Source of the DNA: Nitrospirota bacterium
GTDB lineage: Bacteria; Nitrospirota; Thermodesulfovibrionia; Thermodesulfovibrionales; JdFR-86
Assembly (NCBI GenBank): GCA_037386965.1
Contig: JARRLN010000026.1
Location: 1-43,992 of the forward strand
Reading direction: 5' to 3'
Length of the DNA: 43,992 bases
Shown here: positions 15,646 to 29,278 of the stretch, piece after piece
Numbering within the stretch: position 1 is the first letter of the stretch
Layout of the letters: each line of letters begins with the position of its first letter
Program-made: the position numbers and the translations under genes
Notes under the pieces: generated by a model
Databases searched by the model: none
Seen by the model: only the letters and a program-made list of their open reading frames with translations
What the model was told of the DNA's origin: nothing

Positions 15646-16011
15646 GTGGAAAAGATTCTCCTATGTTCATACGACCCCATTTTCACCAAGGCGCTCATGG
15701 GGGTGGTGTTTCAGGAGGGCTACGGCGTAGAGGTGGTGGACCATGCCGCACTGGCGGTTCAAAAGGCGATGGCCCGCTCCTATGCCGGCGTCATCCTGGA
15801 TTCCGGCTCCATAGGGCTTCCGGCGGAGGAAGCGGCGAAAATCATCAACCTGGCCGTCGGAGACGTGCCGGTCATCGTGGCGGGCAGCACCGGCACCTCC
15901 GACGGCGGCACGTGGAGCATCCGGAGGCCGCCGGACCTTCTGGAGGTGACGCAGGTGGTCAGGGAGCTTCGCACACGCACAGAAGCGGAAAGGAGAGGCA
16001 GAGGCATATGA
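15646..16011 (+). CDS. receiver-like (pseudo-receiver) protein, first gene of the methyltransferase run
   Basis: 121 aa from a GTG at 15646. It has the length and alpha/beta pattern of a CheY-like receiver, with MEKILLCSYDPIFTKAL at the N-terminus and VILDSGSIG placing Asp52 at the phospho-acceptor position. The acidic pair is reduced to one Asp (D10), and the usual Lys-Pro near the end is Arg-Pro (SIRRPPDLLEV), so it may not be phosphorylated normally. Its stop overlaps the ATG of the next gene (ATGA), tying it to the methyltransferases. A regulatory or scaffold role is a guess. The start is within about 5 nt of the predicted sigma-54 start site. Confidence 0.7.
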   Translation: MEKILLCSYDPIFTKALMGVVFQEGYGVEVVDHAALAVQKAMARSYAGVILDSGSIGLPAEEAAKIINLAVGDVPVIVAGSTGTSDGGTWSIRRPPDLLEVTQVVRELRTRTEAERRGRGI

Positions 16012-17036
16012 AACCCAGGGACGTGATAGTGAAAGCCTTCGAAGGGGGCAGACCCAACAGGGTGCCGGCGACTCTCTTCGGGGCGGGGATGTGGAGCATC
16101 AAGGACTACGGCACGAGCTTCGAAGCGCTAGGGCACGACGCGACGAAGATGACCGACATGCTGGTGGCCGAGAGCCAACGCCTTCTTTGCGACATCGTCT
16201 ATGCCGGGAGCGGCTATAACAATTTTCATGCCGCCGCCTTCGGCGGCGGCATCAAGTACCGTGAAATGGGAGCCCCGGACCTGAAGGAGCACCTGGTTAC
16301 AAGCGAGGAGGACCTGGAGAAGCTGGACCTTGCGGCCCTGGATCGCGACGAGGTCATACGCACGGTGAAGGAAGCCCTCCGGGCCGCGAAGAAGAAGCTC
16401 GGCGACGAGTACGTGGTCACCATGACGGCCTGGGGGCCCTTCACCCTGGCGGCCCGGTTCGTGGGGGAGGAGGACATGATGAAGGCCACCTTCAAGCGCC
16501 GGGAGTTCGTCCACAAGGTCTGCGCGTTCATCACCGAGCTCCTCATACGCCTGTACGAGCCCCTGGTCAAGGACGGCACCCTCCAGGTCATAAGCCTCGC
16601 CGACCCCACCGCCAGCGGGGACCTCATCTCCAAGAAGCAGTTCAAGGACTTTGCCGTCCCCTACCTGAGGAAGTTCACCGACTGGGCCAAGTCCCAGAAC
16701 GCGCACACGCTGGTGCACATCTGCGGCAACACCACCGACAGGCTCGAGCTCATGCCGGAGACCGGGGCCAGCTGCATCAGCCTGGACCACAAGACCGACA
16801 TCGCGAAGGCCAAGGAGCTCCTGCACGGGAAGATGTGCTTCGCCGGCAACGTGGACCCCGTGGCCATCATGCTCCAGGGAACGCCGGAACAGGTGCGGGA
16901 GGTCTCCCGCAGGGTCATAGAGACCGCGGGGACGGACGGGGGCTTCGTCCTCATGCCCGGATGCGACATCCCGCCCACGGTCCCCTACGAAAACATCCAG
17001 GCCTTCATCGGGGCGGCACGGGAGTGGAAACTGTAA
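16008..17036 (+). CDS. MtaA/CmuA-type methyltransferase (URO-D family), copy 1
   Basis: 342 aa, full length. The fold is that of uroporphyrinogen decarboxylase, and the zinc motif of MtaA-type enzymes is present: His237-x-Cys239 in LVHICGN and Cys319 in LMPGCDIPP. The family moves methyl groups between a corrinoid protein and a thiol (CoM in MtaA/MtbA), or from a methylated substrate to the corrinoid protein (CmuA, MtvB, MtoB). With the corrinoid protein, MtrH-type protein and CoM genes nearby, it is either the methylcobamide:CoM step or a substrate-specific demethylase. It starts inside the stop of the pseudo-receiver gene and has GGAGAGG upstream. Which direction it works in cannot be read from sequence. 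Confidence 0.88.
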   Translation: MKPRDVIVKAFEGGRPNRVPATLFGAGMWSIKDYGTSFEALGHDATKMTDMLVAESQRLLCDIVYAGSGYNNFHAAAFGGGIKYREMGAPDLKEHLVTSEEDLEKLDLAALDRDEVIRTVKEALRAAKKKLGDEYVVTMTAWGPFTLAARFVGEEDMMKATFKRREFVHKVCAFITELLIRLYEPLVKDGTLQVISLADPTASGDLISKKQFKDFAVPYLRKFTDWAKSQNAHTLVHICGNTTDRLELMPETGASCISLDHKTDIAKAKELLHGKMCFAGNVDPVAIMLQGTPEQVREVSRRVIETAGTDGGFVLMPGCDIPPTVPYENIQAFIGAAREWKL

Positions 17037-17053: not shown

Positions 17054-17137
17054 ATGAGAAGGACGGAGGCAGCAAGGCGCAGGCCGTTTGAAAACCTTGA
17101 AGGAGAACGGCTATGGGAACTTTGTGGGAGGAGCTGA
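17054..17137 (+). CDS. possible 27-aa peptide between methyltransferase and CMD genes
   Basis: A strong GGGGAGGTG stands right before ATG 17054, and the frame encodes a very basic 27-residue peptide (MRRTEAARRRPFENLEGERL...) before a stop at 17137. It overlaps the N-terminal part of the next gene in another frame. I do not recognise it. It could be a translated leader, a decayed gene start, or chance. Confidence 0.2.
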   Translation: MRRTEAARRRPFENLEGERLWELCGRS

Positions 17138-17640
17138 AGAGTTTCTTTGTCCGCACGGGGCCCCCGAGGCCCGTGGGACGGGGAGAGAAAGGAGAAACGA
17201 TGGAAACGAAGATGACGGCTGAGCAGGCAAACGCGTACATGAAGGAGAAATGCGGGTTCGTTCCCCGCATGTTCCAGATCATCAACACCGTCACCCCCGA
17301 GCCGGGGAAGACCTTCGCCGACTTCTACGCCAGCATATTCGGCGACGGCGCCCTCTCGAAGAAGGTCAAGGAGCTGATGTTCATGTCCGGCGGGGTGGCG
17401 TACTGTTCGCCCCGGTGCATCATCCACGTCGTCCCGGCCATCAATGCCGGGGCCACCTCGGAGGAGGTCTTCGAGGCGGCCGCCGTGGGGATGATCCTGG
17501 CGGGGTTCGTCCCGGGCGGACCGGGCATCCCCTATGCCTTCGAGTACGCGCTGAAGTGCGTGGATATCGACCAGAAGTTCAGGAAAGGCGAGGAGTGGGA
17601 GTACCTGCCTCAGCCGAAGTTCGACCACGGCATCTACTAA
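17113..17640 (+). CDS. carboxymuconolactone decarboxylase/AhpD-like protein
   Basis: 175 aa from ATG 17113 or 146 aa from ATG 17200; both have good ribosome sites (AAGGAG and AAAGGAG) and the recognisable domain begins after the second. The core KVKELMFMSGGVAYCSPRCIIHVVPAINAGATSEE has the AhpD-like pattern of cysteines followed by His (C-x3-C-x2-H) and the AGAT turn. Family members are small all-helical oligomers acting as decarboxylases or thiol-based peroxidatic/redox partners. Its place between two methyltransferase genes implies a job in methyl transfer or thiol redox chemistry, but no function is established. Confidence 0.75.
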   Translation: MGTLWEELKSFFVRTGPPRPVGRGEKGETMETKMTAEQANAYMKEKCGFVPRMFQIINTVTPEPGKTFADFYASIFGDGALSKKVKELMFMSGGVAYCSPRCIIHVVPAINAGATSEEVFEAAAVGMILAGFVPGGPGIPYAFEYALKCVDIDQKFRKGEEWEYLPQPKFDHGIY

Positions 17641-17705: not shown

Positions 17706-18671
17706 ATGTTCAGGTTCCAGACGCCGCAGAAGGTTTTCGATTTTGCCGGTTTCAAGATAGGGGGGCAGCCCGGCGAGAACCCGCCGCTTCTCATCGCCTC
17801 CATGTTTCACAACAAGGACAGAATACTCCGCGACCGAAAGGGAGACTTCGACCGGGAGCGCGCCCGCGAGCTTATTCGCAGGCAGGAGGAGCTTTCCCGC
17901 TCCACCGGCATCCCGGCCATGGTGGCCATGGTGGCCAATTCTCCCGAGGAAGCGAAGATATACATCGATTTCTACCTGGAGACCACCGGCATGCCCTTCG
18001 GCATCGATATGTGGATGGCCGAGAAACGGGCAAAGGCCACGGAGTACGTGGCGAAGCTGGGGGTGCAGGAAAAGTTTCTCTACAACAGCATCACCCCGTG
18101 GGACAAGGACATAAAGGGGCAGGTGCAGAGGCTCAAGGACCTGGGCATCCGGCACGTCATCATCCAGGCCTTCGACGACCAGGACCAGAGCCCCGCCGGG
18201 AGGCTGAAGTCGCTGGAGAGCTTGCTGGGGCAGGGGGCCGACGCCTTCGACACCATCCTGGTGGACACCTCGGTGATGAACCTCCCCAGCACGAGCTTCT
18301 CCCTGGTGGCCAACAGGCTCATCAAGCAGAAGCTGGGCCTGCCCTGCGGCAGCGCGTACAGCAACGGCACCCACATGTGGAAGGAGGCCAGGGAAGCCTG
18401 GGGACTGGAGGGCTTCCGGGCGATGGACGCGGTGGCCCAGGGGATGTCCAGCGCCCTGTGGAGCGACTTCGACCTGTACGGGCCCGCCGTCACCGCCCCC
18501 AGGATCTTCCCCGCGGTGGCCACGGGCCAGATACTGCTGAGCACCCTCGCCTATGAGGAGACGGGCCGGATACCCGAGAACCCCGACCTGCCCATTCGGA
18601 GGTACTTCCCGGACTTCATCGAGAAGCTCCTGGCCGGAGGAGCCCGGAAAAAAGCCAAGGCGGCAGGCTGA
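17706..18671 (+). CDS. MtrH-family pterin:corrinoid methyltransferase
   Basis: 321 aa. It resembles subunit H of tetrahydromethanopterin S-methyltransferase, starting FRFQTPQKVFDFAGFKIGGQPGENPPLLIASMF, with conserved TGIPAMVAMVANSPEEA, DTSVMNLPSTSFSL and LPCGSAYSNGTH. The fold is a pterin-binding TIM barrel. Soluble homologues such as MtgA (glycine betaine pathway) and MtoA (methoxyl-aromatic pathway) transfer the methyl group from a corrinoid protein to tetrahydrofolate or tetrahydromethanopterin. It therefore links the corrinoid protein at 19785 to the C1-pterin pool. AAGGAG lies 8 nt before the ATG. The pterin used is not evident; folate is the default in bacteria. Confidence 0.88.
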   Translation: MFRFQTPQKVFDFAGFKIGGQPGENPPLLIASMFHNKDRILRDRKGDFDRERARELIRRQEELSRSTGIPAMVAMVANSPEEAKIYIDFYLETTGMPFGIDMWMAEKRAKATEYVAKLGVQEKFLYNSITPWDKDIKGQVQRLKDLGIRHVIIQAFDDQDQSPAGRLKSLESLLGQGADAFDTILVDTSVMNLPSTSFSLVANRLIKQKLGLPCGSAYSNGTHMWKEAREAWGLEGFRAMDAVAQGMSSALWSDFDLYGPAVTAPRIFPAVATGQILLSTLAYEETGRIPENPDLPIRRYFPDFIEKLLAGGARKKAKAAG

Positions 18672-18704: not shown

Positions 18705-19745
18705 ATGATAGGCGAAGAAACCATGACGTCAAAGGAAAGGGTCCTGAAGCTCTTCAGGCGGGAAGAGACGGACCGCCCCGCCTGCTTCAGCGGGATGGGC
18801 AACGCCACCACCGAAGGGCTCAACCAGCTGGGCTACAGGTTCGCCCAGGTCCATCTGGACGCCGGGCAGATGGCCGAGACGGCGGCCACCACGCACAAGC
18901 TCTTCGGGTTCGACTGCTGCGTGCTGCCCTTCGACCTGTGCGTGGAGGCCGAGGCCCTGGGCTGCGAGATAAACACCTATCCGCACTCTGAGGACCTCCT
19001 GTACCCCACCATCAAGGAGAAGGTCATCCACAGCGAGGAGGAGATGGACCTCTCCATCCCCGCCGACTTGCTCTCCCGGGGCCGGGTGCCCCTCATGAAG
19101 GAGGCCATCGGCCTGGCCAGGAAGGACGTGGGCGGGGAGGCGCCCATCGGCTCCTACGTGCTGGGGCCCTTTACCTTGGCGGGGCAGGTCATGGAGCTCA
19201 ACGACCTGCTGAAGCTCAGCTTCAAGAAGCCGGACAAGGTGGGCGCCCTCATGGAGAAGCTCTCGGAGGCCATCATCCAGGTGGCCCGCGCCTATGAAGA
19301 GGCCGGCGTGGACTACCTTACCGTGCGGGAGATGGGCGCGACGAGCGACGTGTTGAGCCCGCGCGTTTTCAAGAGCCTCATCCTGCCCCACCTGAAGGTG
19401 ATATTCGAGAAAGTAAAGGTCCCCAGCGTCGTGCACATCTGCGGGAAGACCAACGACATCGTGGGCTTCATGATGGAGAGCGGGGCCGACGCCATCAGCG
19501 TGGACCAGAAAAACGACGTGGCCGAGAGCCGGAAGAAGCTGGGCGAGGACGCCCTTATCTTCGGCAACTACGACCCCTACAACGTCCTGGTTGCCGGCAC
19601 GCCGGAGCAGGTGCGCCAGACCGTCAGGACGTGCCTGGACGACGGCGTCAGCGCCGTCTGGCCCGGCTGCGACATCTGGCCCACGGTCCCCGCGGAGAAC
19701 TTCAGGGCCATGATGGACGAAGTGAAGCGGTACAAGAAGTCATAG
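18705..19745 (+). CDS. MtaA/CmuA-type methyltransferase (URO-D family), copy 2
   Basis: 346 aa from ATG 18705 (340 aa from ATG 18723, whose N-terminus MTSKERVLKLF is the common family start). The zinc ligands are His244-x-Cys246 in VVHICGKT and Cys322 in VWPGCDIWP. It is clearly diverged from copy 1 and has its own variable substrate-facing segments, so the two probably have different partners: one may demethylate a substrate, the other methylate CoM. AGGAGG lies upstream. It sits directly before the corrinoid protein gene, its expected partner. Confidence 0.88.
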   Translation: MIGEETMTSKERVLKLFRREETDRPACFSGMGNATTEGLNQLGYRFAQVHLDAGQMAETAATTHKLFGFDCCVLPFDLCVEAEALGCEINTYPHSEDLLYPTIKEKVIHSEEEMDLSIPADLLSRGRVPLMKEAIGLARKDVGGEAPIGSYVLGPFTLAGQVMELNDLLKLSFKKPDKVGALMEKLSEAIIQVARAYEEAGVDYLTVREMGATSDVLSPRVFKSLILPHLKVIFEKVKVPSVVHICGKTNDIVGFMMESGADAISVDQKNDVAESRKKLGEDALIFGNYDPYNVLVAGTPEQVRQTVRTCLDDGVSAVWPGCDIWPTVPAENFRAMMDEVKRYKKS

Positions 19746-19784: not shown

Positions 19785-20489
19785 ATGGCTTCGGAAGAAA
19801 GGAAACAGGAGATACTGGGGCACCTGAAGGAGGCGGTCATAGAGTACGACGAAGACGCCGCCAAGGAGTGGGCCCAGAAGGCCCTGGACGAGGGCCTGAA
19901 GGCCAACGACGCCATCTTCGACGGCCTGGTGGTCGGCATGCAGGAGGTGGGCAGGCTCTTCGAGGCGCAGGAGTACTTTGTGCCGGAGCTGCTCATGTGC
20001 GCCGACGCCCTGTACGCGGGGCTGGACATCCTGAAGCCCCACGTGGAGCAGATGGACCTGGGGCTGAAGGGCTCCGTGGTCATCGGGACCGTGGAGGGCG
20101 ACGTCCATGACATCGGCAAGAACATCGTCAAGATGATGTTCGACGTGGCCGGCTTCGACGTCTACGACCTCGGGCGGGACGTGCCCCTGGATAAGTTCGT
20201 CGAGGAGCAGCTGCGCACCGACAGCGACCTGGTCTGCCTCTCGGCCATGATGACCACGACCATGCAGGGCATGAAGAAGGTCATCGAGGACCTCAAGGCG
20301 AAGAACCCCAACGTCAAGATCATGATCGGCGGAGCGCCGGTCAGCAAGGACATCGCCGAGAAGTGGGGCGCCGACGGCTTCGCCCCCGACGCGACCAACG
20401 CCCTGAAGGACGCCATCGACATGATAAGCTCCCTGAAGAAGCTCAGGGACGAGGCCGGACAGCGGGAAGAGAAGAAAGGGGCTAAGTGA
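19785..20489 (+). CDS. corrinoid (B12-binding) methyl-carrier protein
   Basis: 234 aa. A helical cap domain (about 1-90) precedes the B12-binding Rossmann domain (about 95-215). The His-on cobalamin motif GDVHDIGKN places the cobalt ligand at His108, and the other conserved loops SAMMTTT and IGGAPV are present, as in MtaC/MtbC/MtoC. It shuttles the methyl group on cobalt between the methyltransferases of this cluster. A strong purine-rich ribosome site precedes the ATG, suggesting high expression. Its stop overlaps the GTG of the next gene. Confidence 0.95.
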   Translation: MASEERKQEILGHLKEAVIEYDEDAAKEWAQKALDEGLKANDAIFDGLVVGMQEVGRLFEAQEYFVPELLMCADALYAGLDILKPHVEQMDLGLKGSVVIGTVEGDVHDIGKNIVKMMFDVAGFDVYDLGRDVPLDKFVEEQLRTDSDLVCLSAMMTTTMQGMKKVIEDLKAKNPNVKIMIGGAPVSKDIAEKWGADGFAPDATNALKDAIDMISSLKKLRDEAGQREEKKGAK

Positions 20490-21021
20490 GCGAAGCACTC
20501 AGAAGGGAGCTTCTCGGGGCCGGCGCGGCCCAGGTGGGGTTTGCCTCCCTCCGGGGGGTGCTGAGCCCGGAGCTTTCGCACCTCAGAAACGCCGTCTGCG
20601 TGGGCGTGGACAGCCGCCTCAGGGAGGAGACCCTGTCGCTCCTTCTGGCGCTCCAGAAACGGGCCGCCCGCTTCCTGAGGAAAGAGAGGCACCGGTTCTT
20701 CCCCATTCCTCCGGACTCCGACCGGGTGCGGGACAGGTTCGCCTCCCGGCTCTACCCTCTCATGACCCACAAGATGGCGGCGACCTGCGCGGGGCCATCA
20801 CCGGAGCGGAGTGGTCCCGGGAGGAGCCTTTCCCGGAGCTTCTGCTTGCGAAGCGCTGCACGGCGCACAAGGAGGGAGCGCGGTCCGTCTCCGGACGGCC
20901 CAACTGCGGCCTCTGCATCACCATATGCCCCTACGGCAGGGACCGCGGAGTCCCGCAAGGGACTGCGAAGCCCGCCCGGGGACTTCGGCCCCTGAGGGCA
21001 AGGAAGATTTCGCGACTCTGA
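20486..21021 (+). pseudogene. broken epoxyqueuosine-reductase-like Fe-S protein (internal deletion and frameshift)
   Basis: The N-terminal half reads well from a GTG overlapping the corrinoid gene stop (MSEALRRELLGAGAAQVGFA ... LYPLMTHKMAATCAG), like the QueG-type Fe-S proteins that often accompany corrinoid methyltransferases. After MTHKMAATCAG the frame turns to nonsense, but another frame entered at 20779 encodes GDLRGAITGAEW ... CTAHKEG ... NCGLCITICPYG, the family's C-terminal end with part of its ferredoxin motif, and stops at 21021. The segment normally between them, with the first cluster motif, is missing. The join lies in a GGCGACCTGCGCGGG stretch that can be read in both frames, which suggests deletion between short repeats. 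It may also be an assembly error. Confidence 0.7.
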
Positions 21022-21035
21022 AGGAGAGATAGGAT

Positions 21036-23009
21036 ATGCCGAGGTTCAAAGTGAATTTTCAGCCCTCCGGCAGGAGGGGGGATGTGGAGGAAGGCTCCAC
21101 TCTCCTTGAAGCCGCCCAGAAGCTCGGGGTGGACCTCGAGGCCATCTGCGGCGGGAAGGGCACCTGCGGGAAGTGCAAGGTGCGCGTGGAGGAGGGCTAC
21201 TTCGAAAAGGACGCCATGGACTCCCGCATGGCCCACCTGAGCCCCTTTGCGGAGGCGGAACGGAAGTTCGTCAAGCCCGAGGACGGCCCCTTCATGCGGC
21301 TGGCCTGCTCCACTGAGGTGCACGGGGACGTCAAGATATTCGTGCCGGAGAAGTCCCGCGCCGGGAAGCAGATCGTGCGAAAGGCGGCAAAGGAGATAAC
21401 CATCCCCATAAGGCCGGCCGTGCGGAAGTACTTCGTGGAGCTCAAAAAGCCCGCCCTGGACGAGCCCATCACGGGGGACCTGGAGAGGCTCAAGGCCTTC
21501 CTCGGCAGGGAATACGGCCTGGACAACCTCTCCATCGACTTCGCCGTGCTTGGCGACCTTCAGGATATCATCAGGCGCGGGGAGTGGAACGTGACGGTCA
21601 CCGTCTGGATGGGGCGGGAGATCATAAAGGTGGAGCCCGGCTTCGTGGAGGCCGCCTACGGGCTGGCCGTCGACGTCGGCACCACCACCGTGGCGGCTTA
21701 TCTCTCCGATCTTCTGACCGGAAAGGTCATAAGCACCGAGAGCATGATGAACCCCCAGGTGCCCTACGGGGAGGACGTGATGAGCCGCATCACCTACGCC
21801 ATGACCTCGGAAAACGGGCTCAGGACCATGCAGCAGGCCCTCATCGAGGGGCTCAACGAGCTCGTCGACAGGCTCACCGCCGACCTCCGGATGAACGGCG
21901 CCAGGGGCGGAAGCGCCATCCTGGACATGACGGTGGTCTTCAACACGGCCATGCACCACATCTTCCTGGGGCTGAACCCCACGTACATCGGGCGCTCTCC
22001 CTTCATACCGGCGGTGCAGAACGACATGGACATCAAGGCCCGGGACGTCGGGCTCGATATAAACCGGGCAAGCTACGTCCACGTCCTGCCCATCGAGGCG
22101 GGCTTCGTGGGGGCGGACAACGTGGGCGTGCTCATCGCCCAGGAGCCTTACAAGATGGACGAGAAGGTCCTCATCATAGACATCGGGACGAACGGCGAGC
22201 TTCTGCTGGGCAACAAGGACGCCATCTGCTCCACCTCCTGCGCCACCGGGCCGGCCTTCGAGGGAGCGCAGATAAGGTTCGGCATGCGCGCCGCCCCGGG
22301 GGCCATCGAGGCGGTGCGCATCGACCCGGAGACGAAGGAGCCCCTGTACAAGGTGATCGGGAAGGCCGACTGGCACACCCACATCAAGAAGGTGGACGCC
22401 AAGGGCATCTGCGGCTCGGGCATCATAGACGTGGTGGCCGAGATGTTCAAGGCGGGCATCATCGACAAGTCCGGGAAGTTCGTAAAGGACCTGGACACGC
22501 CCCGGGTGCGGGCAGGGGCCGATGGGAAGATGCAGTACGTGCTGGCCTGGGCCGACGAGACCAGCATCGGGCAGGACATCACCGTGACCCAGGCCGACGT
22601 GCGCGCGCTTCAGCTTGCCAAGGGCGCCCTGTACGCCGGGGCCAAGCTCATGATGAAGAAGATGGGCATCGAGAAGGTGGAGAAGGTCATCCTGGCGGGG
22701 GCCTTCGGAAGCTATATCGACAAGGAGTCGGCCATGACCCTGGGGATGTTCCCCGACTGCGACCTCGACAACGTCTATGCGGTGGGCAACGCCGCCGGCG
22801 ACGGCGCCCTCATGGCCCTGTTGAGCACGGAGAAGCGCCTGGAGGCCAGGGAGAGGGCGCGGTGGCTTGAGTTCGTGGAGATAGCCGTGGAGCCCGAGTT
22901 CGAGAAGGAGTTCATGAAGGCCATGCACATCCCGCACATGAAGGACACGTTCCCCCACGTCAAGGAGCTCCTGGCAAAGAAGGGCTCTCCGGTCCATGTC
23001 AAGGGATGA
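21036..23009 (+). CDS. RACo-type corrinoid protein reactivator (2Fe-2S ferredoxin and ASKHA ATPase)
   Basis: 657 aa. The N-terminal 2Fe-2S domain has C38, C44, C47 and C91 (C-x5-C-x2-C). A linker region is followed by an ASKHA-type ATPase with DVGTTTVAAYLSDLLTGKV, DIGTNGELLLGNKD and GICGSGIIDVVAEM, and a C-terminal LAGAFGSYIDKESAM. RACo, RamA-like and MtoD proteins use ATP to drive reduction of accidentally oxidised Co(II) corrinoid back to the active Co(I) form. The expected client is the corrinoid protein at 19785. AAGGAG precedes the ATG, and the stop overlaps the next start (ATGA). Confidence 0.95.
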   Translation: MPRFKVNFQPSGRRGDVEEGSTLLEAAQKLGVDLEAICGGKGTCGKCKVRVEEGYFEKDAMDSRMAHLSPFAEAERKFVKPEDGPFMRLACSTEVHGDVKIFVPEKSRAGKQIVRKAAKEITIPIRPAVRKYFVELKKPALDEPITGDLERLKAFLGREYGLDNLSIDFAVLGDLQDIIRRGEWNVTVTVWMGREIIKVEPGFVEAAYGLAVDVGTTTVAAYLSDLLTGKVISTESMMNPQVPYGEDVMSRITYAMTSENGLRTMQQALIEGLNELVDRLTADLRMNGARGGSAILDMTVVFNTAMHHIFLGLNPTYIGRSPFIPAVQNDMDIKARDVGLDINRASYVHVLPIEAGFVGADNVGVLIAQEPYKMDEKVLIIDIGTNGELLLGNKDAICSTSCATGPAFEGAQIRFGMRAAPGAIEAVRIDPETKEPLYKVIGKADWHTHIKKVDAKGICGSGIIDVVAEMFKAGIIDKSGKFVKDLDTPRVRAGADGKMQYVLAWADETSIGQDITVTQADVRALQLAKGALYAGAKLMMKKMGIEKVEKVILAGAFGSYIDKESAMTLGMFPDCDLDNVYAVGNAAGDGALMALLSTEKRLEARERARWLEFVEIAVEPEFEKEFMKAMHIPHMKDTFPHVKELLAKKGSPVHVKG

Positions 23010-23320
23010 CGAAGGTTCGGGTCATATCGGGCGCATGCGGCTTCGTCACCGGCATCGTGGCCCGCAAGGAAGGGGCGAAGGAGGTCGGGGTCGCCGTCAC
23101 CTCGGAGTGCGAGATGGTGGAGAAGATGGCGCCCGAGGTGGCCGTGCTCCCGGCCATGGCCGTCTTCGTCCGCCACCCGGACAACCCGGTCTACCGGGCC
23201 GCCGGCAAGCACCTGAAGCACGTGGCCTGCCCGGTGCCCTGCGGCATCCTGAAGGCCCTGGAGGTGGAGGCCGGGCTCAACGTGCCCAAAGACGCGAGCA
23301 TCGCCTTCGAAAAGGAGTAG
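23006..23320 (+). CDS. small conserved unknown of corrinoid methyltransferase clusters (DUF6951-like)
   Basis: 104 aa, soluble. It starts TKVRVISGACGFVTGIVARKEG and has a strikingly conserved-looking pattern of single cysteines: Cys at ACGF, SECEMV and ACPVPCGILKAL. I believe it belongs to the DUF6951 group found next to RACo genes, but this rests on memory of the family. Three or four spaced cysteines could bind a metal or Fe-S cluster. It starts inside the RACo stop codon (ATGA), so tight coupling suggests a shared role in corrinoid reactivation. Confidence 0.6.
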   Translation: MTKVRVISGACGFVTGIVARKEGAKEVGVAVTSECEMVEKMAPEVAVLPAMAVFVRHPDNPVYRAAGKHLKHVACPVPCGILKALEVEAGLNVPKDASIAFEKE

Positions 23321-23326
23321 CAGGAC

Positions 23327-23998
23327 ATGGGGACGCTCTTGAGCCTGGCGGCCTACGCGGCCTGGGCCTTCTTCGTGGCGCGGCTCTGCCGGCACGGCGT
23401 CCTCTGGGTGAGGCGCCGGGGAGCGGCGGAAACGGGCGAGACCACGGTTGCCGGCGTGGTGATGGCCTTCGTCGACGTGGTTTTTCTGAGGAGGCTTTTT
23501 CTGGTGAACAAGGTCCTCTGGATAGGGGAGTGGGTCTTTCACGTATCGTTCGTCCTGGTGCTGCTGAGGCACCTGAGGTTCTTCTTCGACCCGGTGCCGG
23601 GGTGGGTCGCGGCGGTGCAGACGCCGGGGGTGTATGCGGGGTACGCCCTGCCTGTTTCGCTGGCCTATATCCTTCTGGTGAGGCTCACTCTGGAAAGGCG
23701 AAAGTACGTGTCCTCGTACAATCTCTTCCTTACCGGGACGCTCTTTCTCATCGGGCTTACCGGTGTTCTTCAGCGCACCGTGCTCTGGACCGACGTGGTG
23801 GCGACGAAGGAGTTTGCGCGGGGAATCCTGGCGCTGAGCCCCGCCGGTGCTCCCCAAAACCCCGTATTCCTCGCGCATTTCGTTCTGGTCCTCGTTTTGC
23901 TGGTTACCCTGCCCACGCACATATTCACGGCCCCCTTCGTGACCTACGAGGCCTGGCGGCAGGAGGAAGGGGTCAAGAGGCTTCTCCATGATGACTGA
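23327..23998 (+). CDS. b-type cytochrome membrane subunit (HdrE/NarI-like)
   Basis: 223 aa with about five membrane helices. Two pairs of histidines stand in the right places to bind two b hemes: His72 and His82 in EWVFHVSFVLVLLRHLRF, and His184 and His198 in AHFVLVLVLLVTLPTHIF. This is the pattern of NarI, DsrM and HdrE, which pass electrons between quinols (menaquinone or methanophenazine) and a cytoplasmic Fe-S protein. The next gene, overlapping by 11 nt, encodes an HdrD-like protein, so the pair forms a membrane disulfide reductase resembling HdrDE of Methanosarcina. It starts 7 nt after the previous stop. Confidence 0.85.
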   Translation: MGTLLSLAAYAAWAFFVARLCRHGVLWVRRRGAAETGETTVAGVVMAFVDVVFLRRLFLVNKVLWIGEWVFHVSFVLVLLRHLRFFFDPVPGWVAAVQTPGVYAGYALPVSLAYILLVRLTLERRKYVSSYNLFLTGTLFLIGLTGVLQRTVLWTDVVATKEFARGILALSPAGAPQNPVFLAHFVLVLVLLVTLPTHIFTAPFVTYEAWRQEEGVKRLLHDD

Positions 23999-25190
23999 AG
24001 AAAGGTTCACGACGTGCCTCTCGGGCGCGGAGCTTCGCGAGCTGGACGCCTGCACGCAGTGCGGCGAGTGCCTGAAGTTCTGCCCCGTCCAGGAGGTCAC
24101 GGGCGACCCCACGGTCTCCCCGCCCGAGAAGATACGCATGTTCAGGGAGTTCATCCGGGCCACCGAGTCCCTGAAGGCACGGCTTTTCGGCCCGCGGGAG
24201 GTTGACCGCGAGCTCCTCGAGCACTTCGTCAAGGCCGTCTACGAGTGCACGACCTGCGGGGCCTGCGGGCAGGCCTGCACCGTGGGCATACACACGCAGC
24301 GCCTCTGGCCCATGCTGAGGCGGGAGATGGTCAGGCGCGGCCTCGGCCCCCTGGGTCCGCAGAGCGCCTTGCCCGGTGTGGTCCAACGGACGGGAAACAT
24401 CTACGAGAAACCCGCGTCGGAGCGCTATGGCTGGTTCCCCGATGGCGTAGCCGTGGCTGAGGAGGCGGAAATTGCCTATTACGCCGGCTGCACGGGCGCT
24501 TACGAGGCACAGCCCATGGTGCGGGGGGATGCGCTCGTTCTGGGGGCCGTCGGCGAGCCCTTCACGATGCTCCCGCCCGAGGAGGAGGTCTGCTGCGGCT
24601 TTCCGCTCTTCATCACCGGACAGCACGACATGCTGGAGGGCCTCGTGAAACGGCTCGTCCAGGCGTACAGGGCCAGGGGGGTTCGCACGCTCCTGTGCTC
24701 CTGTCCCTGCTGCGTGAACATGATGGCGCGGGACTGGCCCCTCTTTTACGGAGAGCGGCTGCCCTTTAAGGTCCGGCACATAAGCCAGTTCGCGGCTGAA
24801 GCGATGCGGCGGGGGAGGCTCCGGCTTGCCCGGCGGCTTCCCGATGAGAGGCTCATCTATCACGACCCCTGCTATCTGAGCCGGGGGGTGGGCGTTACCG
24901 AGGAGCCGCGTCAGGTCCTCCGGGGCATCCCGGGAGCCACACTCCTTGAGTTTGAGCGCAACCGCGAGGACTCCCGGTGCTGCGGGGCCGGCGGGGCGGC
25001 CAGGAAGATCTATCACGAAAACGCCGTAGCCATCGCGCGGCTTTCCATAGACGAAGCGGCGGCCAAAGGTGCGGACAGGCTTGTCCTGAGCTGCCCGGCC
25101 TGCTACAGCAAGCTGAACGAGGCCCTGGAGGGGCACGAGCGGCAGGTGCGGATAACCGACCTCATGGAGCTCGTGGGGAGCCTGCTGTGA
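23988..25190 (+). CDS. HdrD-like heterodisulfide reductase catalytic subunit
   Basis: 400 aa, the size of archaeal HdrD. Two ferredoxin motifs come first (C22, C25, C28, C32 and C87, C90, C93, C97). Two complete CCG domains follow, with spacing C168-x33-CC-x35-C-x2-C, and DPC-x35-CC-x36-C-x2-C near the C-terminus; both fit the CCG consensus that binds the noncubane 4Fe-4S clusters which split disulfides in HdrB/HdrD. It should reduce a mixed disulfide, for example one involving coenzyme M, using quinol electrons from the cytochrome b. DsrK, TmcB and lactate/glycolate oxidase subunits are related, but the CoM genes downstream favour the Hdr role. The start is ATG 23988 or 23991. Confidence 0.85.
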   Translation: MMTEERFTTCLSGAELRELDACTQCGECLKFCPVQEVTGDPTVSPPEKIRMFREFIRATESLKARLFGPREVDRELLEHFVKAVYECTTCGACGQACTVGIHTQRLWPMLRREMVRRGLGPLGPQSALPGVVQRTGNIYEKPASERYGWFPDGVAVAEEAEIAYYAGCTGAYEAQPMVRGDALVLGAVGEPFTMLPPEEEVCCGFPLFITGQHDMLEGLVKRLVQAYRARGVRTLLCSCPCCVNMMARDWPLFYGERLPFKVRHISQFAAEAMRRGRLRLARRLPDERLIYHDPCYLSRGVGVTEEPRQVLRGIPGATLLEFERNREDSRCCGAGGAARKIYHENAVAIARLSIDEAAAKGADRLVLSCPACYSKLNEALEGHERQVRITDLMELVGSLL

Positions 25191-26458
25191 GCCACTTCTC
25201 CATCGTATGCAGAAACTGCGGGAAGGTCCTCCCGCAGGTCTACTGTGCCTTCTGCGAGCACTGTACGGGCTCCCTCCTGGTCACCCGCTACAAGGAAGCC
25301 CGCTTCCGTGAAGGCGACAGGGCTCGGGGCGTCTGGCGGTTCAACTGGCTGCCGGTGCACTCCCCGCGGGGGATACCCCAGTCCGGGCCGGTGGTCTACC
25401 GCTCGGAGGGCCTTGCCCGGCGGCTGGGCCTCCGGGAGCTCTGGGTCGCCTTTAACGGGTACTGGCCCGAGCGCGGGGCCCTCATCGAAACCTGCACCTT
25501 CAAGGAGTTCGAGGCGGCCGTGGTGCTGGCCAACGCCCGGGAGAACGGCGTGGCGGGCCTGACGGTGGCCAGCGCGGGCAACACCGCCCGCGCCTTTGCG
25601 CATCTGTCGCAGAAGACGGGCTACCCCGTGACCATCGTGGTGCCCAGCATGTGCCTGCAGGATATGTGGTATCTGGAGACCTCCTCTCTGGTGCCCACCA
25701 TGGTCATCGAGGACGGCGACTACTCCGACGCCATCGACGTGGCCCGCCGGTTCTCCCTGATATCGGGCATGCCGTTCGAGGGTGGGGTGAAGAACGTGGC
25801 CAAGCGTGACGGGCTGGGCATCGTGATGCTGGAGGCGGTCTCGGCCATGGGCAGGATGCCCGGCCACTACGTGCAGGCCGTGGGAAGCGGCGCGGGGGCC
25901 ATAGCAGCCTGGGAGATGTCCGAGCGCTTCCTTCGGGATGGCCGCTTCGACGGCAGGCTGCCCCGGCTTCACCTGGCCCAGAACCTTCCCTTTGCCCCCA
26001 TGAGCAAGGCATGGCAAAGGGGAAACCGGGAAATGGACCCCGCGGACCTGGAGGCCTCGCTCATCGCCTGCATATCCACCCGGGTGCTCTCCTCCCGCTA
26101 CCCGGCCTACGGCGTCAGGGGAGGGGTTTACGACGCGTTGACGGCCACGGGCGGGAACATGTACGCTGTGACAAACGAAGAGATGGCCGAGGCCCGGGAC
26201 CTCTTCGAGGAGTGCGAGGGGGTGGACATCGTGCCGGCGGCGGCGGTGGCCGTGGCCGCCCTGGGGAAGGCCGTCACGCAGGGGGCCATGGGCGACGGGG
26301 AGCCCGTGCTCCTGAACATAACCGGAGGCGGGGAGAAGAGGCTCAAGGAGCAGAAGAAAACCTATGCCGTGGGAGGCGAACGCATCTCCAAGGACATCTC
26401 CGATGCGGGCATCGAGGAACTGCTGTGCGGAGCCCTGAAGAGGAACTCCTCGAGATAA
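25187..26458 (+). CDS. cysteate synthase (threonine synthase paralogue)
   Basis: 423 aa from a GTG overlapping the HdrD stop. A Cys-rich zinc-ribbon-like start (C8, C11, C20, C23, C26) precedes a fold-type II PLP enzyme. The likely PLP lysine is Lys106 in ETCTFKEFEA, and SAGNTARAFA (129-138) is the phosphate/substrate loop. Cysteate synthase of Methanosarcina makes L-cysteate from O-phosphoserine and sulfite as the first step to coenzyme M and evolved from threonine synthase. The assignment over threonine synthase rests on the AGNTARAFA-type loop and, more strongly, on the adjoining sulfopyruvate decarboxylase. The aminotransferase needed in between is not in the window. Confidence 0.8.
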   Translation: MSHFSIVCRNCGKVLPQVYCAFCEHCTGSLLVTRYKEARFREGDRARGVWRFNWLPVHSPRGIPQSGPVVYRSEGLARRLGLRELWVAFNGYWPERGALIETCTFKEFEAAVVLANARENGVAGLTVASAGNTARAFAHLSQKTGYPVTIVVPSMCLQDMWYLETSSLVPTMVIEDGDYSDAIDVARRFSLISGMPFEGGVKNVAKRDGLGIVMLEAVSAMGRMPGHYVQAVGSGAGAIAAWEMSERFLRDGRFDGRLPRLHLAQNLPFAPMSKAWQRGNREMDPADLEASLIACISTRVLSSRYPAYGVRGGVYDALTATGGNMYAVTNEEMAEARDLFEECEGVDIVPAAAVAVAALGKAVTQGAMGDGEPVLLNITGGGEKRLKEQKKTYAVGGERISKDISDAGIEELLCGALKRNSSR

Positions 26459-27564
26459 TCAAGGCCTCGGGGGTGGACCTCCTGCTGACCCTGCCCTGCG
26501 ACCGCGTGAAGGCGTTTATCGGCCTGGCCGACCGCTACCTGTCCCGCCTGCCCCTTACGCGCGAGGAAGAAGGCGTGGGCATCGCCGCGGGGGCCGCTCT
26601 GGCGGGCCGGAGGCCCGCCATGGTGGTGCAGAGCTCCGGGGTGGGAAACATGGTCAACGCCCTCCTGTCCCTCACGCGGTTCTACGAGCTGCCGCTGGCC
26701 CTCTTCATAAGCCATCGGGGGGTGTACAGGGAGGGCATCGCCGCTCAGGTGCCCATGGGCCGGGCCCTTCCGGGCCTTCTCGAGGCCATGCATATCCCCT
26801 TCTCTACCCTCAAGTCCCCCGAAGAGTTTTCCCGGGTCGGGGAGGCGCTCGAGAGCCTCTATCGCGAGGGCCGCATCCATGCCTTTCTCCTGGTCCCTTC
26901 GATCTGGGAGGGCTCGGAGGCCGAGGCCCCCGTGCGTCAGGACCGCCCGTACTGCGAGCCCGCGGAGGTCGGCGCCCGGCCCGCCTGTCCGCCTGCGGGG
27001 ATGAGGCGTTATGAGATTATCCAGGCCCTACGGCCCGCCCTGGAGGGCAACGTCGTGGTCTCGAACCTGGGGGTGCCCTCCAAGGAGCTTTACCACGTGC
27101 TGCCCCAGCCGTCGAACTTCTACATGCTGGGCAGCATGGGCATGGCCACCCCCATCGGCCTGGGGCTGGCTCTTTCCACCCCGGGGCGCGTCTTCGTGAT
27201 AGACGGGGACGGCAGCCTGCTCATGAACCCCGGCACCCTGGCCACGGCCGCCCTGGCCGCGCCGGAGAACCTCACCGTGCTCTGCGTGGACAATGCCTCC
27301 TACGGCTCCACGGGGGAGCAGCCCACCCTGACCGGGACATGCGTGGACCTGGAGGCGGTGGCCCGGGGCATGGGCATAAAGCGGACGGCTCGCGTCTGGG
27401 AGCGGGAGGGCCTCCTTGAGGCTGCGCGGAGGACCGACGGGCCGCTTTTCATCCATGCGCTGGCCCGCCCCGGTAACGCCAGGGTGCCGGACATCCCGCT
27501 TTCGGCCGGGGAGATAAAGGGCCAGCTCATGGGGTTTCTGTCCCGCACACCGAGGGCTTCCTGA
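26425..27564 (+). CDS. comDE: sulfopyruvate decarboxylase, fused alpha and beta domains (ComDE)
   Basis: 379 aa. The N-terminal half is the ComD-like thiamine-PP pyrimidine domain with the activating Glu in LTREEEGVGIAAGAALAG (about residue 48). The C-terminal half is the ComE-like PP domain with GDGSLLMN (261-268) and, 25 residues on, CVDNASYG for Mg2+. The enzyme decarboxylates sulfopyruvate to sulfoacetaldehyde, a coenzyme M precursor. The start is GTG 26425, preceded by GAGG at 7 nt and lying inside the cysteate synthase gene, so the two are coupled. Phosphonopyruvate decarboxylase is the closest alternative, but no PEP mutase gene is present. In Methanocaldococcus the two domains are separate proteins. 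Confidence 0.82.
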   Translation: MRSPEEELLEIIKASGVDLLLTLPCDRVKAFIGLADRYLSRLPLTREEEGVGIAAGAALAGRRPAMVVQSSGVGNMVNALLSLTRFYELPLALFISHRGVYREGIAAQVPMGRALPGLLEAMHIPFSTLKSPEEFSRVGEALESLYREGRIHAFLLVPSIWEGSEAEAPVRQDRPYCEPAEVGARPACPPAGMRRYEIIQALRPALEGNVVVSNLGVPSKELYHVLPQPSNFYMLGSMGMATPIGLGLALSTPGRVFVIDGDGSLLMNPGTLATAALAAPENLTVLCVDNASYGSTGEQPTLTGTCVDLEAVARGMGIKRTARVWEREGLLEAARRTDGPLFIHALARPGNARVPDIPLSAGEIKGQLMGFLSRTPRAS

Positions 27565-28318: not shown

Positions 28319-29278
28319 TCAGAGCTCGCCCCGCTGGGTGATGAGCCCCTCGCTGTAGTGTTCCCCCTCGCCGTGGATGCGCCTGATGAGGGAGGTATCG
28401 AAAATCTCTTCCAGGCTTGGCTCCCGGTCTATGTAGCCGAGGCGCTTCATGGCGCTTACGAACCGGGCGGTGCAGGCCATGTAGCCCTCGGTAAGCTGGG
28501 TGCAGTAGCGGGGCGAGATGGCCAGGGTCTCCATGATGAAGTTCTCGTCCACCACCCCCACGTGGCCGGCGATGGTGCGGGCGGCCAGGTCCACCTGGGT
28601 GCGGAGAAAGTCCGTTGCCTCTTCGTGGAGCCGGAGGAAGCTTTCGACCCGCTCGGGCTCGCTGGCCAGAAACTCCCCCCTGGCCAGGATGCCGTAGCTG
28701 GGGTTCTCCGGCCAGATGAGGGAAGGGGGATAGAGCACTTTTCCCCGGGCAAACACCATGACGGCCGCGGCCAGGGCCGGGGTACCGAAGGCGGCCTGTA
28801 TGTCGTCCCTGGCCAGCGCATCGACGAGGAAATCGGCCCAGGGGACGTTCTTTACCGTGACATCCTCCCGAAGTCCGTAGTGCTCCAGGGCGTCGGCCAG
28901 GATGACGTCGTGGATGGAGCCCCGTCCGGGCACCCCTATGGCCTTGCCCCTGAGCTGAACGAGCACGTCTCCCAGGTACTCCCTCTCGGGATGGCCCTCA
29001 AGGTCGGCCCGCCCCACCATGACCGTGCCCTCCTCGTGGCCTCCGGCCACGCAGAGGATGTCCGCTCCCCTGGCTATTCCCACGATGGCGGGAGGAAGGC
29101 CCACGTATCCCAGGTCGAGCTTTCCCTCTTCCATGGCCTTGACGATGGCCGGACCGGTCCCGAAGAGCTCCCACTGGGGCTCCTCGCCCAGGTGTTCGGC
29201 TAGGTCCTCCCGGGCCATGAGGAGTATCGCCGTGTGGTAGAAGGTGGAGAGATGCCCTATGCGAAGCGGCCTCGCCAT
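28319..29278 (-). CDS. solute-binding-protein-like (NMT1/SsuA/TauA type) without signal peptide
   Basis: 319 aa. It resembles periplasmic binding proteins of the nitrate/sulfonate/thiamine-precursor class, e.g. GHLSTFYHTAILLM, ELFGTGPAIVKAMEEGKLDLGYVGLPPA and LRGKAIGVPGRGSIHDVIL. The N-terminus MARPLRIGHLSTFYH begins at the first beta strand, so there is no export signal or lipobox and no transporter genes are nearby. It starts 3 nt after the stop of the cobalamin adenosyltransferase gene and is cotranscribed with it. It may be a cytoplasmic ligand-binding or enzyme version of the fold (as with MqnA); the ligand is unknown. Confidence 0.7.
   Translation of the reverse strand: MARPLRIGHLSTFYHTAILLMAREDLAEHLGEEPQWELFGTGPAIVKAMEEGKLDLGYVGLPPAIVGIARGADILCVAGGHEEGTVMVGRADLEGHPEREYLGDVLVQLRGKAIGVPGRGSIHDVILADALEHYGLREDVTVKNVPWADFLVDALARDDIQAAFGTPALAAAVMVFARGKVLYPPSLIWPENPSYGILARGEFLASEPERVESFLRLHEEATDFLRTQVDLAARTIAGHVGVVDENFIMETLAISPRYCTQLTEGYMACTARFVSAMKRLGYIDREPSLEEIFDTSLIRRIHGEGEHYSEGLITQRGEL

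Follow-up and report, generated by a model that had tools for sequence, protein, structure and literature searches.

Several described systems resemble the gene pair considered here. Archaeal HdrDE is a methanophenazine- or menaquinone-linked reductase of CoM-S-S-CoB. Mycobacterial EtfD (9ojn) is a menaquinone-linked wire that carries electrons from CCG clusters to heme b; it is a single fused protein that lacks one CCG-1 cysteine, possesses a capping His in a CPHC motif, and couples to ETF. DsrMK of DsrMKJOP also combines a cytochrome b with a CCG protein at the quinone pool. In bacteria, coenzyme M (CoM) is known mainly from alkene epoxide metabolism in a few aerobes, which use a different synthesis route. 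The Type 1 mlp gene clusters of Kountz and Balskus (PMC10418091) share MtaA-like enzymes, a corrinoid protein, and a Ram/RACE activator with the locus reported here; in the passages that describe them, these clusters are without HdrDE, cysteate synthase, and ComDE, and the first cluster is without a folate methyltransferase. Neither "CoM biosynthesis" nor "Nitrospir" is found in the text of that paper. The combination of an HdrDE-like pair with CoM genes is also not described in the titles and opening abstracts of mostly non-subscription literature on Thermodesulfovibrio(nia) or Nitrospirota and coenzyme M, on HdrDE with menaquinone, bacteria, and CoM biosynthesis, or on sulfopyruvate decarboxylase with cysteate synthase or MtaA, nor in passages of two papers on Thermodesulfovibrionia.

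The pair was found in the window, a stretch of 43,992 nucleotides (contig JARRLN010000026.1) from a Nitrospirota genome of 2.54 Mb that is 96.7% complete. It belongs to a block of about 12 genes that occurs across the Thermodesulfovibrionia (Table 1), here called the island. A genome scan recovered 78 loci, 74 of which are titled Nitrospir- or Thermodesulfovibrion-, while the other four comprise two titled "uncultured bacterium", BMS3Bbin05, and one "Thermoleophilia". The bearers of the pair are a group of uncultured sulfate-reducer-like bacteria. The contig titled Thermoleophilia bacterium Kmv30 (Actinomycetota; locus L090) holds the whole island, and its copy has a tree position close to that of the window, reflecting either horizontal transfer or misbinning.

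Table 1. Genes of the island in the window (positions are those of the window)
Feature	Position	Strand	Characteristics
UroD-superfamily methyltransferase (MtaA/CmuA type)	16005..17036	+	H-x-C...C zinc ligands; TIGR01463 186 bits, below cut-off 235
Small CMD/AhpD-like protein	17113..17640	+	PF02627; conserved Cys-x3-Cys-x2-His, very highly conserved
MtrH-like methyltransferase	17706..18671	+	NF002142 332 bits, above cut-off 287; PF02007
MtaA-like methylcobamide:CoM methyltransferase (MtaA2)	18705..19745	+	NF004889 268.6, above 244; TIGR01463 250.8, above 235.4
Corrinoid protein (MtbC/MtgC type)	19785..20489	+	TIGR02370 208.4, just below cut-off 215.3; PF02310, PF02607
QueG-like Fe-S protein remnant	20486..20995	+	internal deletion and frame change against L064
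RACo-type reductive activator of corrinoid proteins	21036..23009	+	PF14574 331 bits
DUF6951 protein	23006..23320	+	PF22263; invariant cysteines
HdrE/DsrM/NarI-type cytochrome b subunit	23327..23998	+	223 aa, membrane; invariant H72, H82, H184, H198
HdrD-like reductase subunit	23988..25190	+	400 aa; two [4Fe-4S] ferredoxin motifs, two complete CCG domains, extra Cys241
Cysteate synthase	25187..26458	+	TIGR03844 466 bits, above cut-off 325; GTG start overlaps HdrD stop codon
Fused sulfopyruvate decarboxylase ComDE	26449..27564 (start approximate)	+	TIGR03845 174.9, above 148; TIGR03846 210.8, just below 221.5

The sequence-only reading had described a reductase subunit with two exactly spaced CCG domains and two ferredoxin motifs, encoded by a gene that overlaps a cytochrome gene, and all of these features are borne out. 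The ferredoxin motifs (CX2CX2CX3C) are at C22 and C87; the two CCG motifs read C168-x33-C202C203-x35-C239xxC242 and C295-x35-C331C332-x36-C369xxC372. Across 23 aligned orthologs none of the 18 Fe-S cysteines varies, and the two genes share an 11 bp overlap. The Pfam CCG family matches two stretches of the protein with 87.8 bits, which excludes chance as the origin of the motifs, and the ferredoxin domains are matched as well. An intact pair of motifs cannot be taken for granted in these genomes, as a paralogous group of HdrD-like proteins keeps one CC pair only; a motif scan finds CCG motif 1 degenerate and the second CC pair retained. In six loci (L038, L057, L061, L101, L109, L112) this second HdrD-like gene lies between DUF6951 and the standard pair, and the cytochrome b beside it, in those loci where one was seen, is larger and of another kind.

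Each subunit was modelled. The AlphaFold2 model of the reductase has a mean pLDDT of 87.6; over its whole length the closest solved structure is EtfD, with 381 residues aligned (Z 31.0; Foldseek E 7.3e-18), and the CCG half also matches HdrB chains (Z 22.8-23.3, 233-234 residues). A search of PDB sequences with the reductase likewise returns EtfD and HdrB chains, together with one weak match to a designed cytochrome fusion; none of these seven sequences is an archaeal HdrD. The model of the cytochrome is helical (mean pLDDT 90.6), and its top fold match is a weak one to NarI (1y5l_C; E 0.018, TM 0.56). Its four histidines are conserved throughout two alignments, of 69 and 24 rows, suggesting that the protein binds two b hemes and agreeing with its earlier designation as a di-heme cytochrome b. 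No Pfam family matches the cytochrome, its profile has no match among PDB sequences, and its sole NCBIfam match is DsrM, at 66.9 bits against a cut-off of 300. In a few loci its position is taken by another, larger cytochrome that matches PF02665.

The likeness to archaeal HdrDE rests on layout (two ferredoxin motifs, two CCG domains), the adjoining small cytochrome b, and the CoM gene context; the trees built here contain bacterial proteins. The pair differs from the archaeal enzyme in its bacterial host, in the lack of the methyl-CoM reductase alpha subunit (MCR_alpha) in all 61 relatives, and in an additional Cys or Sec at position 241. EtfD is the best full-length fold match, but this identity was rejected given the separate genes and the presence of C203 and C241. 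DsrK was rejected as well, as the reductase reaches 88.7 bits against a cut-off of 400 and the genome encodes a separate DsrK that scores 728.3. GlcF (30.1 versus 333), LdhH (127.6 versus 800), GlpC (80.7 versus 278), TmcB (82.8 versus 735), and HmcF (61.1 versus 750) were all rejected, and no HdrD model is among the NCBIfam matches of the orthologs. The top-ranked model is TfrB, the CoM/CoB thiol:fumarate reductase subunit, which matches 23 of 23 orthologs with the lowest best E-value; it was rejected at 171.9 bits versus a cut-off of 385, and its rank is not used to argue for CoM chemistry because the model is unspecific: other CCG proteins score 180-243 on it, and LdhH/GlcF-like controls do as well as the reductase or better. 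In a small tree built by a quick method, in which long branches and weakly supported forks are common, a single clade (support 98) unites the CoM-type proteins, and the GlcF/LdhH-like proteins of the relatives, the paralog group, and the genome's own DsrK (on a long branch) fall outside it. The reductase thus groups with none of the DsrK or GlcF/LdhH-like proteins in the tree, which had been suggested as a check on the assignment. Relatives on plasmid sequences are all below 60% identity (best 28.8% among the matches listed), and none of 38 motif-pattern matches in viral contigs is related to the reductase.

The remaining genes of the island point to corrinoid-dependent methyl transfer and CoM synthesis. 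Across the 78 loci, many of which end at contig edges, HdrD is present in 78, the cytochrome in 70, cysteate synthase in 65, ComDE in 62, DUF6951 in 61, RACo in 59, the corrinoid protein in 51, MtrH and MtaA2 in 49 each, CMD in 45, and the first methyltransferase in 43. The order cytochrome-HdrD-cysteate synthase-ComDE is conserved over the taxonomic order. Both MtaA-type enzymes possess His-Cys-Cys zinc ligands (H244, C246, and C322 in MtaA2) in 90 of 90 rows; in passages of PMC10418091 such ligands are tied to sulfur or selenium substrates. The MtrH-like protein is a candidate for the methyl-corrinoid:tetrahydrofolate step, and 10 of 78 loci have FolD inserted in the island, which ties it to C1-folate metabolism. 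In the CMD/AhpD-like protein, C102 and H105 are present in 45 of 45 rows and C98 in a fraction of 0.89. Compared with L064, the QueG-like gene of the window lacks about 54 internal codons and changes frame at 20794; it represents either a pseudogene or an assembly error. The in-frame stretch from 15627, upstream of the first methyltransferase, is probably not coding. A gene for an SsuA/NMT1-like sulfonate-type binding protein is found near the island in 17 of 78 loci (28319-29278 on the minus strand of the window); uptake of CoM or another sulfonate is a possible function.

The association of the reductase with cysteate synthase extends over the phylum. Among 61 relatives in the order, the genome of the window included, 22 encode an HdrD-like ortholog with 62-75% identity to the window protein, and cysteate synthase scores over its cut-off in 21 of these 22 genomes and in 0 of the other 39. 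The exception, which is 86% complete, has fragments of cysteate synthase between HdrD and ComDE. In a set of 395 genomes drawn across the phylum, the HdrD profile matches 70 at 1e-60, of which four weak ones (G075, G083, G105, G382) were set aside to leave 66. A CoM-type cysteate synthase is encoded by 59 of the 395, all 59 of which also encode the HdrD-like protein; seven genomes have the HdrD-like protein alone, and 329 have neither. The two genes are on the same strand, with cysteate synthase at most 500 bp downstream, in 53 of the 59; in another four (G021, G041, G009, G391) both are present on different contigs. A Fisher test of co-occurrence gives 7e-63, a value that overstates independence because the genomes are related. 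Several families carry the island, and it also occurs outside the class. The link to CoM genes made by the sequence-only reading is therefore strengthened by a gene order shared among tens of species and by the finding that, in the 395 genomes, cysteate synthase never occurs without the HdrD-like protein; its further claim, that the pair is a real CoM-disulfide reductase, reaches beyond these data.

MCR_alpha was found in 0 of 61 relatives by a search whose control recovered Methanocaldococcus jannaschii and Methanosarcina acetivorans, making CoM-S-S-CoB an unlikely substrate. The known CoM synthase family (PF01837, ComF/HcyBio) is present in one of the 61 relatives, G050, in which cysteate synthase does not score over the cut-off, and the MMP16 model has weak partial matches only in the genome of the window. 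As the known synthase is missing, CoM itself is a putative product of the island. According to parts of PMC12068725, sulfide and sulfoacetaldehyde can yield CoM non-enzymatically, and DUF6951 is a candidate for the missing sulfur-transfer step. Sulfoacetaldehyde acetyltransferase (Xsc) is over its cut-off in 0 of 61 genomes; 57 match its model at 1e-30, and these matches are probably other thiamine enzymes. PF02621 (MqnA/MqnD) is matched twice in the genome of the window, indicating menaquinone synthesis by the futalosine route. DsrA is over its cut-off in 56 of 61 order relatives and, as a marker, does not separate island-bearing from island-free genomes among them; the genome of the window encodes a DsrA as well. 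G050 (loci L125, L126) also encodes a divergent HdrD-like protein with 41% identity and CPMC replacing CPCC, in a genome without the CoM island; on a separate contig, another CCG protein lies beside HcyBio (COG1900-type) genes.

A distinctive feature of the reductase is Cys241, an extra cysteine within CCG motif 1 (CP-C-C), which aligns with His583 of EtfD in the PDB sequence alignment. Passages of PMC13083937 report that His583 completes and caps the second CCG cluster, said to render it non-catalytic, and that Thr539 replaces one CCG-1 cysteine in EtfD; in contrast, the equivalent cysteine, C203, is kept in 23 of 23 orthologs. The location of Cys241 at the place of the capping His means that disulfide chemistry at the second cluster may be blocked, and residue 241 may serve as a hemilabile ligand, a redox-active thiol, or a cap. 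In three distinct loci (L087, L102, and L122, where L122 and L014 are one gene), codon 241 is an in-frame TGA, so that the motif reads CP-U-C and not CP-C-C. All 7 genomes tested encode SelB, including those in which codon 241 specifies Cys, and the Sec assignment is drawn from these two findings together. In a SECIS test, the 50 bases 3' of the TGA in these loci form a hairpin (z-scores -0.6 to -1.5) that overlaps the codons of the conserved peptide MARDWP; Cys homologs are similar. One in-frame TGA was also found in each of the HdrD-like genes of G389 and G393, at some position along the gene. In an 86-row tree of HdrD-like copies, likewise made by a quick method with many weak forks and long branches, the sulfur-context copies form one nested clade of eight rows (support 95) inside the CoM-context copies; six lie beside ArsR, DsrE/DsrH-like, SQR-like (type III), and MMPL genes, and the context was not seen for two. 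Paralogs apart, 63 of 76 rows have the CoM context, and the sulfur context appears to be a derived state. The three loci with TGA at codon 241 fall in the sulfur-context clade, which makes this a candidate selenoprotein group. The relevant passages of a selenoprotein review (PMC13188914) list HdrA and a GlpC-like protein, and the terms HdrD and HdrB are absent from the review.

The explanation that we favor, with slightly more confidence than an even chance would warrant, is that the pair functions as a quinone-linked thiol/disulfide oxidoreductase acting on CoM or a mixed disulfide of CoM, in support of corrinoid methyl transfer that depends on CoM but involves no methanogenesis. The two genes would encode a membrane complex of HdrDE build, in which the reductase subunit would hold two cubane [4Fe-4S] clusters and two CCG-domain clusters and the small cytochrome would place two b hemes at the menaquinone pool. 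The sulfoacetaldehyde needed for CoM would come from cysteate synthase and ComDE, and methyl transfer among a methylthio compound, CoM, and tetrahydrofolate would fall to the MtaA-type, MtrH-like, corrinoid, and RACo proteins. The complex would couple menaquinol/menaquinone to the interconversion of the thiol form of CoM and a disulfide form (CoM-S-S-CoM or CoM-S-S-R). Passages of PMC9024614 give menaquinone a potential of -80 mV, making it a weaker reductant than methanophenazine (-165 mV), and model the Methanoperedens HdrDE as running towards disulfide formation. A potential near -80 mV argues against easy quinol-driven reduction of a CoM disulfide, and electron flow in the other direction, from the thiol to the quinones, is no less likely. 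CoM is an antioxidant in Methanosarcina, as stated in part of PMC12713407, so a role as redox buffer is plausible. Counted against this explanation are the missing CoM synthase, Cys241 at the place of a capping residue, the seven genomes with the HdrD-like protein and no cysteate synthase, and the derived clade of the reductase among sulfur-transfer genes without CoM genes. A rival reading is a sulfane-sulfur enzyme that would act, in the manner of DsrMK with DsrC, on a persulfide or trisulfide of either CoM or a carrier protein. The DsrE/DsrH-like, type III SQR-like, and ArsR neighbors of the clade, the DsrM match of the cytochrome, and the DsrA of most relatives are consistent with this possibility, which we nevertheless consider unlikely: the CoM context is the commoner one, the genome has its own DsrK, and DsrA does not track the island.

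It is also conceivable, if fairly unlikely, that the pair is a pure electron wire similar to EtfD, without CCG disulfide chemistry, that connects a soluble island partner (RACo, the QueG-like Fe-S protein, or another donor) to the quinone pool, for example to keep the corrinoid protein active. The whole-length similarity to EtfD, the correspondence of Cys241 to its cluster-closing His, and the presence of RACo and the QueG-like protein within the island all suit such a wire, but it does not account for the retention of C203, and a generic wire leaves the linkage to CoM biosynthesis genes unexplained. Furthermore, menaquinol is a poor electron donor for a Co(II) corrinoid. Finally, cysteate synthase and ComDE might not serve CoM at all, with sulfoacetaldehyde having another fate and the pair reducing an unrelated disulfide. 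The enzyme of the last CoM step lacks an identified gene, as this proposal would have it; however, the MtaA-type enzymes and RACo occur in the same operon, Xsc is over its cut-off in none of the genomes, and the last step can proceed without an enzyme (PMC12068725, in part), which together make this fate very unlikely.

The locking of the pair to genes apparently suited to making and using CoM, without the methane-making enzyme, hints at an undescribed bacterial use of CoM. More broadly, and as a tentative proposal that we hold at less than even strength, the Thermodesulfovibrionia may possess a CoM-dependent C1 pathway without methyl-CoM reductase, in which a corrinoid protein, CoM, and folate would hand on the methyl groups. 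Electrons would move between CoM thiols and menaquinone through a cytochrome-bound complex of the HdrDE type, whose active site would contain a novel redox-active Cys/Sec. A respiratory chain outside the archaea would in that case include the redox chemistry of CoM thiols. The occurrence of the archaeal-type route (cysteate synthase and ComDE), MtaA-type enzymes, and an HdrDE-like pair in one operon, in tens of species from a subsurface group that is widespread, would establish CoM as a cofactor of C1 metabolism and respiration in bacteria. It would also offer a testable case of HdrDE chemistry existing without methanogenesis, and a natural Cys/Sec switch at a CCG cluster.
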